Shown one piece after another: positions 3,337 to 10,178 of a stretch of DNA of 64,000 nt. The position numbers and the translations under genes are program-made. The number at the start of each line of letters is the position of its first letter. Position 1 is the first letter of the stretch. The DNA comes from Phaeobacter gallaeciensis (GTDB lineage: Bacteria > Pseudomonadota > Alphaproteobacteria > Rhodobacterales > Rhodobacteraceae), in NCBI RefSeq assembly GCF_001678945.1, contig NZ_CP015124.1, positions 3,572,001 through 3,636,000 on the forward strand. The letters run 5' to 3'. A model generated the notes under the pieces. That model was not told the origin of the DNA, did no database searches, and saw only the letters and a list, made by a program, of their open reading frames with translations.

Positions 3337-3668
3337 GGGTGATCTGCTTTCAGGCTGTTGGGCCACTTTGAAATCCTGATATCGGGGCGGTCCTGATGGG
3401 CCGCTTTGACCGGCCGTGGGCGCCGGAATAGGTGCCGACCGTGATCTAGCTTCGAGCCCCTCATTGGCAAGGGCACGGAAGTATAGGCGGTCCAAAATTT
3501 TGTATAATTGTTAATGATACGCGCAGGTCGCGCGGTACCGCTGTCGGTCAGTTTAAATTTAATGATTGCAATCGGTTCTTAGTGGCTTTGAAAACGGCAC
3601 AGCGCCGGTAAAACGCTGTGCCGCCTAGAAGCTGTGCCGTAAAAGGCGGCCCTGCTGACCCGGCAGAT
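3337..3668. other. 332-bp intergenic region with a three-copy GCTGTGCC repeat
   Basis: No convincing gene is present. The middle (about 3495-3590) is AT-rich. The right part holds the inverted repeat described separately, and the DUF427 gene ends at 3669 on the opposite strand. The two flanking genes converge here, so transcription termination is the likeliest role. Confidence 0.6.
3596..3622 (-). terminator. Perfect 9-bp inverted repeat, possible terminator of the DUF427 gene
   Basis: GGCACAGCG (3596-3604) pairs perfectly with CGCTGTGCC (3614-3622) over a 9-nt loop. Read on the minus strand the hairpin is followed by GTTTTC, a short U tract, so it could end the pepP/DUF427 transcript. A third partial copy, GCTGTGCCG, lies at 3631-3639 and could compete for pairing. 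Confidence 0.5.
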
Positions 3669-4010
3669 TCAAATCTGTTCGATCTTCACCGAGTCACTGG
3701 GATAAAACGCCAAATAGCCTTTTATTTCGCCCACGTCACTGATTGGGTCCTCATAGCTCCAGACAGCGTCTTCGGTCACCGAGGATTTGTTTACGATGGA
3801 AAAATAGGTGGCATCGCCCTTGTGCGGGCAATGCGTCGTCTTGCTGCTCGGATCGAGAAAGGCCATGGCGATGTCTTCGCGTGGGAAATAGATGACCGGC
3901 GCATGACCCTCTTCGCTCAGCTCTAGTGCGCGGCTGGTTTCGCCCAGAACGGCCCCGCCCGAGCGCACCACCCAGGTGCCATCTGCCTTGCGAATTCGGA
4001 TCTTGCTCAT
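3669..4010 (-). CDS. DUF427 domain protein
   Basis: 113 residues with the features of the DUF427 family: a short basic start (MSKIRIRKADGTWVVRSGG), the central VIYFPREDIAMAFL, and the signature THCPHKGDATYFS with conserved Cys-Pro-x-Lys-Gly, then AVWSYEDP and VGEIKGYLAFYP. DUF427 proteins are small beta-rich cytoplasmic proteins of unknown biochemical role. GGGGAAA upstream of the ATG serves as ribosome site. It follows the aminopeptidase gene on the same strand after 62 bp and may be the last gene of that transcript. Confidence 0.9.
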   Translation of the reverse strand: MSKIRIRKADGTWVVRSGGAVLGETSRALELSEEGHAPVIYFPREDIAMAFLDPSSKTTHCPHKGDATYFSIVNKSSVTEDAVWSYEDPISDVGEIKGYLAFYPSDSVKIEQI

Positions 4011-4072
4011 GTTATTTTCCCCATCTCGTCATTGGTATGCATGTCTTGCCCCGGCAATGTAACAGCCGGGTA

Positions 4073-5863
4073 TCAGATCGCCGCAGTCGCCACGTCCAGC
4101 CAGGCCTGTGCGGCAGGGCTGATCATTGGGCGGATTTTCTGGGCGACCTGCGCATGATAAGCATTCAGCCAGTCGCGTTCTTCCCTTGATAGCATATCTG
4201 CGTCAATCAGCCGCCGGTCGATCGGGACAAAGGTCAGGGTGCGCCAGTCCAGCATGTCCCGCTCTGCGTCGCCGCCGGGCAGGGCAGGGGCCTTTTGCGC
4301 GACGATCAGGTTCTCGATCCGGATGCCAAAGGCACCTTCGCGGTAATACCCCGGTTCATTGGACAGGATCATACCTGGCTGCAGCGGCACCGCAGAGGCG
4401 CGGCTGAGGCGCTGCGGGCCTTCGTGCACGCTGAGGTAGGCGCCGACGCCATGGCCCAGACCATGATTGAAATCCTGCCCGGCCAACCACAGCGGCATCC
4501 GCCCGATGGCCTCGATGTCGCGCCCGGCCAGTCCCTGTGGCCAGCGCAGGCGCGAGATTGCGATCATGCCCTGCAGCACGCGGGTAAAGGCGGCGCGCTC
4601 CTCGGCTCCCGGGGCGCCAATAGCAATGGTGCGGGTGATGTCAGTGGTGCCATCCAGATACTGCCCGCCGCTGTCCAGAACCAGCAGATCGCCGTCCTGC
4701 AGTACCGTGTCAGTCTCGACCGTGACGCGGTAGTGGATCACGGCGCCATTGGCGCCGGTGCCCGAAATGGTGTCAAAACTGATATCGCGCAGCCTGTCGT
4801 CCCGGCGGCGCAGCGTTTCCAGCTGTTTGACCACGTCGATTTCGGTGATGCTGCCCGGGGCCTGGTCGTCGAGCCAAGCCAACAGCTCCACCACAGCGGC
4901 GCCATCGCGCAGGTGGGCGGCGGCGCTGCCTTCGATCTCTGCCGCGTTCTTGCAGGCCTTGGGTAGGGCGCAGGGGTCGCCTGTCGGCTGAAGACGGTCG
5001 CCCAGAGTCTCGGCAACGATCTGCGGCAGGCTGTCCCGGTCCACCGCCACAGCGCCATTGAGCGCGCCCACGGCATTCAGGAAACCGGCAGGTGGATGTA
5101 CGGTTACGCCTGCGCCCAGATGATCCGCCAGCCCCTCCAGTTTCGACGGGTCCATGAACAGGTCCACACGCGCATCACTGTGCAGGATGGCAAAGCCATG
5201 GGCGACCGGATTGCGTGGAATGTCCGACCCGCGGATGTTCAGCAGCCACATGATGCTGTCGGGTAGGGTGATCAGGGCGGCCTCTTGTCCGGCCTCGCGC
5301 AGGCCCTTGGCCAGCCGTCCGCATTTGTCGGCGGCGCTTTCCCCAGCGTAGGCCTCGGGGTGGGCGATGACGCGCTCTGCGGGCGGTGCGGGCTGGTCCT
5401 CCCAGATCCGGTCCACCAGGTTTTCGCAATCCACAAGCATGATGCCGCTGCCGTCCAGCTTCCTGCGCAGGTCGGCGATCTGACCGGTGGCATGCAGCCA
5501 GGGATCAAACCCGACCCGCCCGCCGTCCGGCAGTTGGTCCTTCAGCCAGTCGTGCAGCTGGACCTCGGGCCAGGGCACCGGGGTATAGACATCGGCAACC
5601 TGCTGTTTCACCTGCGTGCGGTAGCGCCCGTCGATGAAAACGCCCGCGACATGGGACAAGGCCGCGCAGAACCCCGCAGAGCCGGTAAAGCCGGTCAACC
5701 AGGCAAGCCGGTCGTCCCGCGGGGCGACGTATTCACCCTGATGCGCATCGGCGCGGGGCACGAGGAATCCATCCAGCGCCTCTCGATCCAGCTCTGCGCG
5801 CAGCGCCTGCAGCCGGGGTGGCCCCTGATCCGGGCGGGCGGTGACGTCGAATGACTGAAACAT
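4073..5863 (-). CDS. pepP: Xaa-Pro aminopeptidase (M24B, aminopeptidase P family)
   Basis: 596 residues, the long three-domain form of aminopeptidase P. Two creatinase-like N-terminal domains (about 1-300) precede the pita-bread M24 catalytic domain. Its five metal ligands can be seen as two aspartates in LVLDSGGQYLDGTTDITRT, histidine in HGLGHGVGAYLSVHEGP, glutamate in SNEPGYY and glutamate in GIRIENLIV. It releases N-terminal residues ahead of proline, using a dinuclear metal centre in the cytoplasm. The start has a strong AGGAGG ribosome site 7 bases upstream. It lies 75 bp after the isomerase gene, downstream of cobT, and may be co-transcribed with it. Confidence 0.95.
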   Translation of the reverse strand: MFQSFDVTARPDQGPPRLQALRAELDREALDGFLVPRADAHQGEYVAPRDDRLAWLTGFTGSAGFCAALSHVAGVFIDGRYRTQVKQQVADVYTPVPWPEVQLHDWLKDQLPDGGRVGFDPWLHATGQIADLRRKLDGSGIMLVDCENLVDRIWEDQPAPPAERVIAHPEAYAGESAADKCGRLAKGLREAGQEAALITLPDSIMWLLNIRGSDIPRNPVAHGFAILHSDARVDLFMDPSKLEGLADHLGAGVTVHPPAGFLNAVGALNGAVAVDRDSLPQIVAETLGDRLQPTGDPCALPKACKNAAEIEGSAAAHLRDGAAVVELLAWLDDQAPGSITEIDVVKQLETLRRRDDRLRDISFDTISGTGANGAVIHYRVTVETDTVLQDGDLLVLDSGGQYLDGTTDITRTIAIGAPGAEERAAFTRVLQGMIAISRLRWPQGLAGRDIEAIGRMPLWLAGQDFNHGLGHGVGAYLSVHEGPQRLSRASAVPLQPGMILSNEPGYYREGAFGIRIENLIVAQKAPALPGGDAERDMLDWRTLTFVPIDRRLIDADMLSREERDWLNAYHAQVAQKIRPMISPAAQAWLDVATAAI

Positions 5864-5938: not shown

Positions 5939-6589
5939 TCAGGCCGCGCCGACAGGTGGGTTCTGAAAGGTGGTGTCGGGGAAGGGCTGGCGCAGGCCGA
6001 ATTCCAGCAGTTCCAGATGGTCCTGTCCGTAATAGGGATCCCCATCCAGCACATAGGTCGGTGATCCGAACAGATGCATCCGCAGGGCTGCATCTGTATT
6101 TGCCTGTAGAACCGCCTGCACATCGGGCGCCATCGCACCTTCAAGCAGCGGTTCGGGGTTAAGCCCGGCGTTTCGTGCAGCCTGTGACAGCTGCTCGGGG
6201 TTCATCAGGTCGATGTCATCGCGCCAATGCGCCTCAAGCAACCCATGGGCAAGGGCATCGACGTCCTGCCCCAGACGTTCGGCCATGATCACCATGCCGC
6301 TGGAAAGGGTCAGGGCGTTGTCATGGTAGGTCGGGCGGTAGGTAATGATCGGAACGCTGCGATAGGCGGCCCAGCGTTCGATCTCGCGTCCGAAGAAGTA
6401 ATCGACATGCGCCTGGTTGCGCCCGGCAAAGGGACGCCCGCCTGCCTGCTCCACCACCGGCGACAACAGAAAGGGACGATGGATCAGTTGGCAGTCATGG
6501 GCCGCGCAGATTTCTGCCAGCCGTCTGGAGCCAAGATAGGCATAGGCGGAATGGGTGGAGTAGAAATATTCGATCTTGCGCTGCGCCAT
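5939..6589 (-). CDS. 2-hydroxychromene-2-carboxylate isomerase / DsbA-like (GST kappa-type) protein
   Basis: 216 residues with a thioredoxin-fold, kappa-class GST-type architecture. The N-terminal strand is EYFYSTHSAYAYLGSRRL, where the serine or threonine replaces the DsbA CxxC. The C-terminal signature is HLFGSPTYVLDGDPYYGQD. I start at ATG 6589 because an earlier in-frame methionine would place 23 unrelated residues inside the cobT coding end. From 6589 the gene begins 13 bp after the cobT stop. Family members isomerise aromatic-degradation intermediates or act on glutathione adducts. Linkage to cobaltochelatase genes gives no substrate hint, so the specific activity is uncertain. Confidence 0.85.
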   Translation of the reverse strand: MAQRKIEYFYSTHSAYAYLGSRRLAEICAAHDCQLIHRPFLLSPVVEQAGGRPFAGRNQAHVDYFFGREIERWAAYRSVPIITYRPTYHDNALTLSSGMVIMAERLGQDVDALAHGLLEAHWRDDIDLMNPEQLSQAARNAGLNPEPLLEGAMAPDVQAVLQANTDAALRMHLFGSPTYVLDGDPYYGQDHLELLEFGLRQPFPDTTFQNPPVGAA

Positions 6590-6602
6590 GCCGGGGGCTC
6601 TC

Positions 6603-8480
6603 TTAACTGGCCTTCTTGATGCCCATGACACGGGCGCGGGCGCGCGGGTCGCTGTCAAACAGCGCCGCCAGCTGTTCGGTCATGGCACCGGCGAGTTGTT
6701 CGACATCCGTGATGGTCACCGCGCGGTCATAGTAGCGGGTGACGTCATGGCCGATGCCGATGGCCAGAAGCTCCACCTGCTTTTTCTTCTCCACCATGGC
6801 GATCACATCGCGCAGGTGTTTTTCCAGGAAGTTCGCCGGGTTCACCGAGAGGGTAGAATCATCTACCGGCGCGCCGTCGGAAATCACCATCAGGATCTTG
6901 CGCGCCTCGGGACGGCCGACCATCCGGCGGTGCGCCCATTCCAGTGCCTCACCGTCGATGTTCTCTTTCAACAGGCCCTCTTTCATCATCAGGCCAAGGT
7001 TCGGGTGCGCGCGGCGCCATGGTACATCGGCACCCTTGTAGATGATGTGGCGCAGATCGTTCAGACGACCAGGCTGCTGCGGGCGGCCTTCGTTCAGCCA
7101 GGCCTCGCGCGCCATGCCGCCCTTCCAGGCGCGGGTGGTAAAGCCGAGGATCTCGACCTTCACGTTGCAGCGCTCCAGTGTGCGCGCCAGCACGTCGGCG
7201 CAGATCGCCGCGATCGAGATCGGGCGCCCCCGCATCGAGCCGGAGTTGTCGAGAAGCAGCGTCACCACGGTGTCGCGGAACTCGGTATCCTTTTCGCGTT
7301 TGAACGACAGCGGGGTGGTCGGGTTGGCGACAACGCGCGCGAGACGTCCTGCGTCCAGAATGCCTTCCTCCAGGTCGAACTCCCAGGAGCGGTTCTGCTG
7401 CGCCTGAAGACGGCGCTGCAGCTTGTTGGCAAGGCGGGAAACGGCGCCCTTCAGCGGTTCCAGCTGCTGATCGAGATAGGCGCGCAGGCGCTCCAGCTCG
7501 GCTGGTTCGGCCAGATCTTCTGCGGCGATTTCCTCGTCGTGGGTGTCCAGGAACACCTTGTAGTCGGGATCCGCTTCTGAGGCAGGCGGCGGCGGGGGCG
7601 GGTCCAGCGGCGCCTCGCCATCGGGCATTTCGGTTTCTTCCGACAGCTCGTCCTCAGCCATCTCGTCCATCGAGACCTGGGCCTGGCTTTCGTCTTGCTG
7701 CTGCTCCTGCGCCTGTTCTGCATCCGCATCGGCCTGTTCGTCGTCGGAATCATCTTCGCCGGAGCTGTCGGGATCCTGCTGCTCTTCGGCGTCCTCTTCG
7801 GCCTGGTCTTCCTGATCCTCATCCGGCTGATCGGGGTCATCGCCCAGCTGGTCGCCATAGCCGAGATCGGTGATAATCTGGCGGGCAAAGCGGGCGAATT
7901 CCGCCTGATCGGCAATCTTCTCTTCGAGGTCGCCGAGCGTTTCACCGGCTTCGGCCTCGATATAACCGCGCCACAGCTCGGCCACGTTGGCGGCACCTTC
8001 GGGCAGCGGGCGGCCCGTGGCCATCTGCCGGACCAGATAGCCCGCAGCAGCAGCCAGCGGCGCCTCGGTCGAGGATTTCATCTGATCATAGCCGCGCCGG
8101 ATCGCCTCGTTGCGGATCTTGACGTCGATGTTCGATGCGGTGCCCGGCATGTGGCGTGCGCCCATCGCCTCGCAGCGGGCGGTTTCCATCGCCTCGTACA
8201 GATCACGGGCCATCTCGCCTTGCGGTGCGTATTTCGCGTGGACGGCATCGTCGTGGAACTTGTGGCGCAAAGCGAGCGCATCCGCAGTGCCGCGGGCCAA
8301 CAGCACTTCCTCGCGCGTCATCCGGCGGGAGACCTGCGGCAGGCGCATGGAATCGCCCGAAAGCCCGGCCGGGTCGACCGTGTAGCTGACCGACAGTTCG
8401 GAATCGTCGGCCATCACCTTGGTCGCTTCGGCCAGCGCCTTTTTGAACGGATCTGCCGGGTTGTCGGTCGGTTTGCTCAT
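6603..8480 (-). CDS. cobT: Aerobic cobaltochelatase subunit CobT
   Basis: 625 residues. CobT with CobS and CobN inserts Co2+ into hydrogenobyrinic acid a,c-diamide in the aerobic vitamin B12 route. The N-terminal third resembles other CobT proteins. A very acidic linker follows (many D, E and Q runs, roughly residues 210-300). The C-terminal von Willebrand A domain carries the MIDAS motif DNSGSMRG and ends in [17 protein letters not shown]. Its ATG overlaps the stop of the upstream racemase-like gene by 4 bp (ATGA), so translation is probably coupled. Order on the minus strand is cobS, racemase-like, cobT. No cobN is in the window. Confidence 0.96.
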
Positions 8481-9178
8481 ATTTTCGCTCTCACTTCATC
8501 GAGGTCGGCTTCATCGGCCGCCAGCCGCGCCAGCAGGTACACATGCACATCCAGCGCATCTACCACCCTATAGCCCGGATCCTGCCCGTCAAACGCCAGG
8601 TTGAGATCGGTGCCCGCCAGCACGATGGCATCGGCGCCCAGACCATCGACCATCCGCTGTCCTGCATCGAGGAACAGCGCCCGCTTTTGCGGCGTGCAGA
8701 CTCCGGCGACGGCCATGTCCTGATAGCTTTGGCCCAGATCCTCGATCTCATCCTCCAGCGCCACGGCGCGGGTTTTCTTCAATTGCCCATAAAGGCCCGT
8801 CTTCATCACCACGCGGGTGCCCAGCAGACCGACGGTGTTCAGCCCCTGTGCCGCAAAATAATCGTCCAGCGGCGTGACGGCCGAGACCAGCGGCAGGGAA
8901 GACAGCGCCACCGTTTCGTCGAAACAGAAATGCCCACCCAAAGAGGTGATGGCAACGCAATCGGCCCCGGCGCCGCGCAGACGGTCGATCAGCCCGGCGT
9001 AGATTTCGGCCTGAGCCGCGCGGTTGTCCGACAGGTTGTTGCGGATCAGCTCCTGCACATCGGCATGGACGATGGTCAGCTCCAGCGGCAGGCCCCGTGC
9101 GGTCATCGCCGCCGTCAGCCGCTGGTAATAGACCACCGTGGCTGCAACGCCGATTCCACCGATCAGGCCGATATGCAT
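8477..9178 (-). CDS. Aspartate/glutamate racemase-superfamily protein lacking the catalytic cysteines
   Basis: 233 residues starting [20 protein letters not shown], the glycine-rich opening of the Asp/Glu/hydantoin racemase superfamily. An upstream in-frame methionine would extend into the cobS spacer, so ATG 9178 is preferred; it lies 19 bp after the cobS stop. Active members use two cysteines, one in a CNT-type motif and one in a GCT motif. Here the first position reads AITSLGGHF (S79 by eye-alignment, H83 kept) and the second VLAGTDLNL (G189, T190 kept). Other cysteines (C74, C85, C161) are off-motif. Classical two-base racemisation is therefore unlikely. Placement between cobS and cobT, with a 4-bp overlap into cobT, suggests a cobalamin-linked job, which is inference. 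Confidence 0.88.
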
Positions 9179-9197
9179 GGGAGTGTCCTTACCGGGT

Positions 9198-10178
9198 TCA
9201 GGCGACGTTTGCCGCGCTTTCGGGCAGTTCCTCGTCAAAGCAACGCTGATAGAACTCGGCCACGGTCTGACGTTCCAGCTCGTCGCATTTGTTCAGGAAC
9301 GACAGGCGGAAGGCATAGCCCACATCGCGGAAGATCTCGGCGTTCTGCGACCAGTTGATCACGGTCCGCGGCGACATCACGGTGGACAGGTCGCCGTTCA
9401 TGAAGGCGGTCCGGGTCAGATCCGCAACGGTGACCATCTGGCTGACGATCTTGCGGCCCTTCTCGGTGTTGTAATGCGGTGCCTTGGACAGGACGATGGC
9501 GGTTTCGGCATCGTGGCTGAGGTAGTTCAGCGTGGAGACCAGCGACCAGCGGTCCATCTGGGCCTGGTTGATCTGCTGAGTACCGTGGTAAAGGCCCGTG
9601 GTATCGCCCAGACCGACGGTGTTCGCGGTGGCAAACAGGCGGAAGAAGGGGTTCGGGGTGATGATCTCGTTCTGGTCGAGCAGGGTCAGCTTGCCGTCAT
9701 GCTCCAGAACCCGCTGGATCACGAACATCACGTCGGCACGGCCCGCATCGTATTCGTCGAATACGATGGCAACCGGATTGCGCAGCGCCCAGGGCAAGAT
9801 GCCTTCGTGGAATTCGGTTACCTGCTTGCCGTCGCGCAGTTTGATCGCATCCTTACCGATCAGGTCGATCCGGGAGATGTGGCTGTCGAGATTGACGCGC
9901 ACCGAGGGCCAGTTGAGGCGGGAAGCGACCTGTTCGATGTGGGTCGATTTACCCGTGCCGTGATAGCCTTGGATCATCACGCGGCGGTTGTGGCTAAAGC
10001 CCGCAAGGATGGCCAGCGTAGTGTCGGGGTCGAACTTGTAGGTCGGATCCAGCGCCGGCACCCGGTCAGAGCCTTCGGCAAAGCCCTTGACGGTCATGTC
10101 GGTGTCAATCCCGAACACATCACGGACCGAAATGGTCTCGGTCGGTTTCGCATTCATATCCAGCATGCCGTCGCTCAT
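9198..10178 (-). CDS. cobS: Aerobic cobaltochelatase subunit CobS (AAA+ ATPase)
   Basis: 326 residues. An MoxR/AAA+ ATPase with Walker [11 protein letters not shown], Walker [15 protein letters not shown], sensor-1 type [12 protein letters not shown], and the CobS-typical start [14 protein letters not shown]. It drives cobalt insertion with CobT and CobN. AAGGA lies about 9 bases ahead of the ATG. It is the first gene of the probable cobS / racemase-like / cobT transcript. The J-domain protein upstream is separated by 274 bp and a terminator hairpin, which argues for an independent promoter in that gap. Confidence 0.96.

Follow-up and report, generated by a model that had tools for sequence, protein, structure and literature searches.

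A conserved racemase-fold protein lacking the catalytic pair, encoded between cobS and cobT in Phaeobacter gallaeciensis

Why a gene of the Asp/Glu racemase superfamily should stand between cobS and cobT, which encode two subunits of cobaltochelatase, is the question raised by a stretch of 64,000 nucleotides from Phaeobacter gallaeciensis (contig NZ_CP015124.1, positions 3,572,001 to 3,636,000; referred to as the window, in whose numbering coordinates are given). An earlier note on this DNA had described the product of the intervening 233-codon gene (referred to as gene x) as a cysteine-less homolog that is not a racemase and may serve cobalamin synthesis. On balance, the analysis reported here favors the view that x is a selected, laterally exchanged racemase-fold protein with a rebuilt pocket, whose place beside cobS and cobT probably does not signify a part in cobalt insertion.

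Membership in the superfamily is clear from a match to PF01177 (70.6 bits against a cut-off of 31), and the predicted structure has the two-lobed racemase fold, with a racemase as its top fold match. The three NCBIfam racemase models that x matches all place it far below their cut-offs (CuyB equivalog, 60.1 against 190 bits; asp_race subfamily, 57.6 against 93.1; PRK10200 equivalog, 35.2 against 417). Four other PF01177 matches occur in the same genome (contig C1, 1267866-1268471, 72130-72729, 2999280-2999837, and 998087-998524), of which two exceed the cut-off and two fall short of it. Alignment to solved racemases sets S79 on Thr83 and G189 on Cys197 of EcL-DER, the E. coli chain (residue names from the available portions of PMC12661438 and PMC12838360), bearing out the claim that both family cysteine positions are substituted. 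The label "cysteine-less" has to be dropped, as the protein has C74, C85, and C161, and C85 is invariant among its aligned relatives. None of the three can simply be slid onto the catalytic positions, because strand 74-77 of the AlphaFold model stops just before residues 78-79 and C85 lies inside helix 80-92; a realignment of this kind, named in the earlier note as a possible objection, fails against the profile alignments as well as the secondary structure of the model. A further change is seen at L80-G81, where canonical relatives have Asn-Thr, a motif that takes part in holding the substrate carboxylate. Docking in the available part of the RacX paper (PMC12838360) assigned a substrate-binding role to the motif. 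The residues in question and the genes around them are located as follows.

8477..9178, minus strand: gene x, 233-amino-acid member of the Asp/Glu racemase superfamily that lacks both catalytic residues (open reading frame, ATG at 9178)
8942..8944, minus strand: codon of S79, first catalytic position of gene x (checked by hand)
8924..8926, minus strand: codon of C85 of gene x, a residue invariant in 53/53 aligned sequences (checked by hand)
8612..8614, minus strand: codon of G189, second catalytic position of gene x (checked by hand)
8606..8608, minus strand: codon of D191 of gene x, Glu in the canonical relatives seen (checked by hand)
9186..9190, minus strand: AAGGA, likely (putative) ribosome-binding site of gene x, read directly, 7 nt before the ATG
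9198..10178, minus strand: cobS, cobaltochelatase AAA+ subunit (CobS Pfam model, NCBIfam cut-off passed)
6603..8480, minus strand: cobT, cobaltochelatase subunit (CobT Pfam model, NCBIfam cut-off passed)

The altered pocket is a conserved state. In an alignment of 53 sequences including x, gathered by whole-protein similarity and ranging from 35 to 81% identity to x, T78, C85, G189, D191, D207, and H212 are invariant (53/53), residue 79 is Ser in 48, Ala in four, and Leu in one, position 80 varies among Leu, Ile, Met, and Val and position 81 among Gly, Ala, and Thr, with H83 kept in 48/53 and C161 in 38/53. The fixed or near-fixed set of the branch comprises S79, a hydrophobic residue 80, a small residue 81, C85, Val or Ala at 124, G189, and D191. 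Conservation of the S79 and G189 substitutions among homologs, which had been put forward as a check, is thus upheld. S79, C85, G189, and D191 are likewise kept in 80/80 named relatives, a set chosen by closeness (the best 80 of 378 loci found with two peptide patterns), in which T78 is kept in 74 and replaced by Ser in six. The G189/D191 count in these 80 loci is biased toward that state because one search pattern contains G189-T190-D191, a bias of which the 53 aligned sequences are free. Canonical relatives from other groups (L214-L224, n = 11) carry Asn-Thr at the Leu-Gly of x in 11/11, Cys at 189, and Thr instead of Val at 124; their residue 79 is Thr in ten and Ser in one (L223, which keeps the second Cys). 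Five loci from other alphaproteobacterial families (L203-L207, 33-36% identity) combine Ala79 with Gly189 in 5/5, with Pro at 82, Cys (2/5) or Ala (3/5) at residue 85, and Asp (two) or Glu (three) at residue 191; judged by their sequences, these are an intermediate kind of PF01177 protein. As they too lack the pair, its loss is wider than gene x, and C85 marks the x branch. The conserved S79, G189, D191, and C85 together with the lost Asn-Thr therefore assign x to a coherent branch of PF01177 that has lost both catalytic residues.

Loss of catalytic residues could also mark x as the decaying remnant of a racemase. However, the median ratio of nonsynonymous to synonymous substitution rates (dN/dS) is 0.109 over 82 pairs (drawn from 59 stop-free loci with a long match to cobS, at less than 22% amino-acid difference and dS between 0 and 3), and gene x is under purifying selection. 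Moreover, 40 of 42 copies in the family sample have no stop inside the match, the stop in the other two (L010 and L013) lying near the C-terminal end, and residues stay invariant across the whole range of identity to x. Decay, largely contradicted by this selection signal, is highly implausible.

For racemase activity, the comparison draws on the available portions of the cited sources. The premise of the earlier note, that superfamily racemases need both cysteines, does not stand, as EcL-DER has Thr83/Cys197 (its Thr is also stated in the review PMC8142540), RacX of Halocola ammonii is an active racemase with Ala79/Cys193 (PMC12838360), and arylmalonate decarboxylase (AMDase) has Gly74/Cys188 (PMC4996985). 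At the first position, active enzymes may have Cys, Thr, or Ala, and x has Ser. All active wild-type enzymes that these sources name, as far as they were available, have the second cysteine, which x lacks. Replacement of this cysteine by Ser is reported to inactivate EcL-DER (Cys197) and to reduce the activity of RacX (Cys193) markedly (PMC12838360), and in OpaE the C90S variant retains 4.8% and C199S ≤0.3% (PMC12661438). Because the RacX variant is reduced and not dead, not every relative depends absolutely on the second cysteine. With neither this cysteine nor Asn-Thr, x is therefore unlikely to racemize free amino acids in the established manner and, going by sequence, probably does not work as a two-base racemase of the known type. 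To this extent the claim "not a racemase" survives, the pair being missing and that state conserved, while its premise about both cysteines falls. Neither a cobS-racemase-cobT arrangement nor a PF01177 branch without both cysteines was the subject of any paper among the matches listed in a search of titles and abstract starts in the open-licence literature.

Alternatively, x could still be a stereoisomerase or a related lyase in which S79, T78, C85, and D191 act as acid/base, a proposal that sits well with Thr or Ala at the first position of active racemases (PMC12661438, PMC12838360), with the Ser of L223 beside a kept second Cys, with S79 in 48/53 and both C85 and D191 in 53/53, and with a racemase as top fold match. 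It is nevertheless unlikely, since the second cysteine is Gly in 53/53, at a position where Ser inactivates EcL-DER and leaves OpaE at ≤0.3% (PMC12838360, PMC12661438), Asn-Thr is gone, S79 gives way to Ala in 4/53 and to Leu in 1/53, T78 to Ser in 6/80, and C85 lies six residues further on, in the following helix of the model.

Turning to the locus, open reading frame coordinates and the Pfam and NCBIfam models confirm the reported placement of the 233-residue frame, with TIGR01651 and TIGR01650 above cut-off for the CobT/CobS pair. The stop of gene x and the ATG of cobT share the ATGA at 8477-8480 (4-bp overlap), and 19 bp separate the stop of the upstream cobS from the ATG of gene x. A sigma-70 promoter scan, uninformative here, gave no match. 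Beyond cobT, a DsbA-like thioredoxin-fold frame (PF01323) spans 5939-6658; its mechanical TTG start overlaps the cobT end, and the true start probably lies further in.

In the family sample of 248 genomes, which overlaps the 80 named loci in some genomes, gene x is found in 41 (42 copies), with cobS in 236 and cobT in 238, so nearly all of the 207 genomes without x still have the chelatase genes, and the presence of x does not follow that of the pathway. cobS lies in the fetched flank of 34 of the 42 copies, and eight copies (L018, L028, L031, L036, L037, L040, L041, and L042) have neither cobS nor cobT in the stretches covered. At the level of the class, 19 of 385 genomes match x at 1e-15, and cobS and cobT were absent within 8-11 kb of x in all 13 fetched loci from other alphaproteobacterial families (43-66% identity). 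The signature residues are the same in unlinked relatives, and the neighborhoods of x outside the cobST locus are heterogeneous. A partner gene was sought in them and discarded, as recurring neighbors stay within a group (L101/L103, L100/L106, or L104/L109/L110); the ten neighbors scanned were a GMC oxidoreductase, MdoG, a SpoIIAA-like protein, a phage integrase, a glycosyltransferase, a transglutaminase, an ATP-grasp protein, a periplasmic binding protein, a CoA-transferase, and an NYN-LOTUS protein. In L104, L109, and L110 the x homolog stands beside an FAD-binding oxidase, an iron-sulfur CCG protein, and further shared genes, a neighborhood that, from its sequence, looks like a catabolic operon. 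In L098, a phage-type integrase gene (3458-4507) adjoins the unlinked x copy (4915-5616).

The interval between cobS and cobT accepts other genes as well. It was surveyed among the 150 cobS and 150 cobT matches listed (of 236 and 238 genomes), with 112 genomes in both; removal of seven with the genes on different contigs and of G034, with a very large gap, left 104, of which 88 lack x and 16 bear it somewhere in the genome. Among the 88, the gap is at most 200 bp in 30 and larger in 58. Forty of the 48 gaps above 600 bp were fetched; the open reading frames called in them form many unrelated clusters, and none in these 40 gaps matched the x profile. An NADPH-dependent FMN reductase (PF03358), the sole gap cargo scanned against Pfam, occurs in 12 of the 40 (e.g., L061:615-1202) and also lies close to x, in opposite orientation, at 15 of 80 x-bearing loci. 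Since cobalt reduction comes after cobalt insertion in the cobalamin pathway, a link of this reductase to the pathway is conceivable. The dnaJ-cobS interval is similarly loose (>600 bp in 37/50), and that between cobT and the M24 peptidase gene is tighter (≤200 bp in 35/58). No match to x at 1e-20 was found in a plasmid collection.

Inheritance of x also differs from that of its neighbors. Its pairwise distances correlate with those of cobS, cobT, dnaJ, and the M24 peptidase at Spearman coefficients of only 0.05, 0.135, 0.05, and 0.212, against 0.369 to 0.789 among the four neighbors themselves, a weakness in keeping with exchange of x apart from them. Mapped onto a cobS tree of 69 genomes (x beside cobS in 29, no x in 40), its presence requires 22 changes against 22.4 in shuffles, the tree being poorly resolved.

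Several observations weigh against exchange without shared function. Only 4 of the 66 inner branches of that cobS tree are starred, faster evolution of x may itself lower the correlation, and a Mantel test of x against cobS gave r = 0.222, with 1 of 2000 permutations as high. The order cobS-x-cobT is found in 60 of 80 close relatives, on one strand in 60/60, the rest having cobT only (three), cobS only (one), or neither in the covered flank (16, several on short contigs and several from Bosea). Gene x overlaps the cobT start in 26 of the 60, the overlap being exactly 4 bp in 20; it lies within 60 bp of cobS in 33, of cobT in 30, of both in 19, and of neither in 16. In G034, moreover, cobT is ~140 kb off, yet x remains beside cobS. 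Conserved order and overlap could mean selection for co-expression. From the side of the chemistry, RacX in which Ser replaces the second cysteine is only reduced in activity, according to the available text (PMC12838360).

The kept order and strand, the 4-bp overlap in 20/60, and the spacing of ≤60 bp to cobS in 33/60 also speak for x as an accessory of aerobic cobalamin synthesis co-translated with cobT, be it a scaffold, a corrinoid- or cobalt-binding protein, or a regulator of CobST assembly. Such a role is improbable given the 207/248 family genomes that dispense with x, the other genes hosted by the interval, the identical signature of unlinked relatives, and the distance to cobN, which in contig coordinates is ~2.36 Mb (cobN at ~1.22 Mb, cobS-x-cobT at ~3.58 Mb of a one-contig genome of 4.06 Mb). 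In addition, the available portions of two sources (PMC6249242, PMC10449867) report that cobalt insertion in vitro needs only CobN, CobS, and CobT, in organisms that may or may not carry x. What remains of the cobalamin role proposed in the earlier note is the order kept among close relatives; it does not extend to the other families, all of whose fetched copies are unlinked, although within the family homologs are not mostly separated from cobST. A part of x in B12 synthesis is therefore possible, but the weaker reading.

In the favored account of a rebuilt, laterally exchanged protein, a superfamily branch would have lost both proton-transfer residues along with the Asn-Thr motif that helps to hold the amino-acid substrate. 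The pocket between the two lobes may still take a small molecule that can be held without the Asn-Thr anchor, and x would either transform this ligand by chemistry other than a two-base 1,1-proton shift, with C85, D191, and H83 as candidate residues, or only bind it. Its place in Rhodobacterales would be a loosely packed interval that swaps cargo by recombination between conserved flanks, with translation of x presumably coupled to that of cobT where the genes overlap. A bolder proposal, and something of a long shot, is a new enzyme class in the racemase fold, in which C85 with D191 and H83 would carry out another reaction on a corrinoid or an amino-acid-derived compound, the gene being a ready-made cobS-cobT insert made together with the cobalt chelatase.

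As the residues on which the reaction depends are missing, the name "racemase" is not to be trusted for the x branch, despite matches to PF01177 and to NCBIfam racemase models. The conserved replacement residues provide a concrete set for mutation, and the cobS-cobT interval warns that constant gene order next to a pathway gene may come from exchange of cargo and not from shared function.

Compared with known systems, EcL-DER/YgeA (PDB 5ELL, 5ELM; 5HRA is, by sequence, the same or a near-identical protein) shares ~20% identity with x in structural alignment and has Cys197 and Asn-Thr where x has G189 and Leu-Gly. RacX resembles x in the absence of the first catalytic cysteine (Ala79), but it keeps Cys193 and Asn80-Thr81 and, per the available source, is active. 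Arylmalonate decarboxylase, of the same superfamily, likewise has glycine at one catalytic position; according to what its source provides, its glycine sits at the opposite one of the two positions and Cys188 is retained, whereas x lacks both cysteines. L203-L207 miss both cysteines as x does and differ from it in Ala79, Pro82, a residue 85 that is Ala in 3/5, and a residue 191 that is Glu in three.
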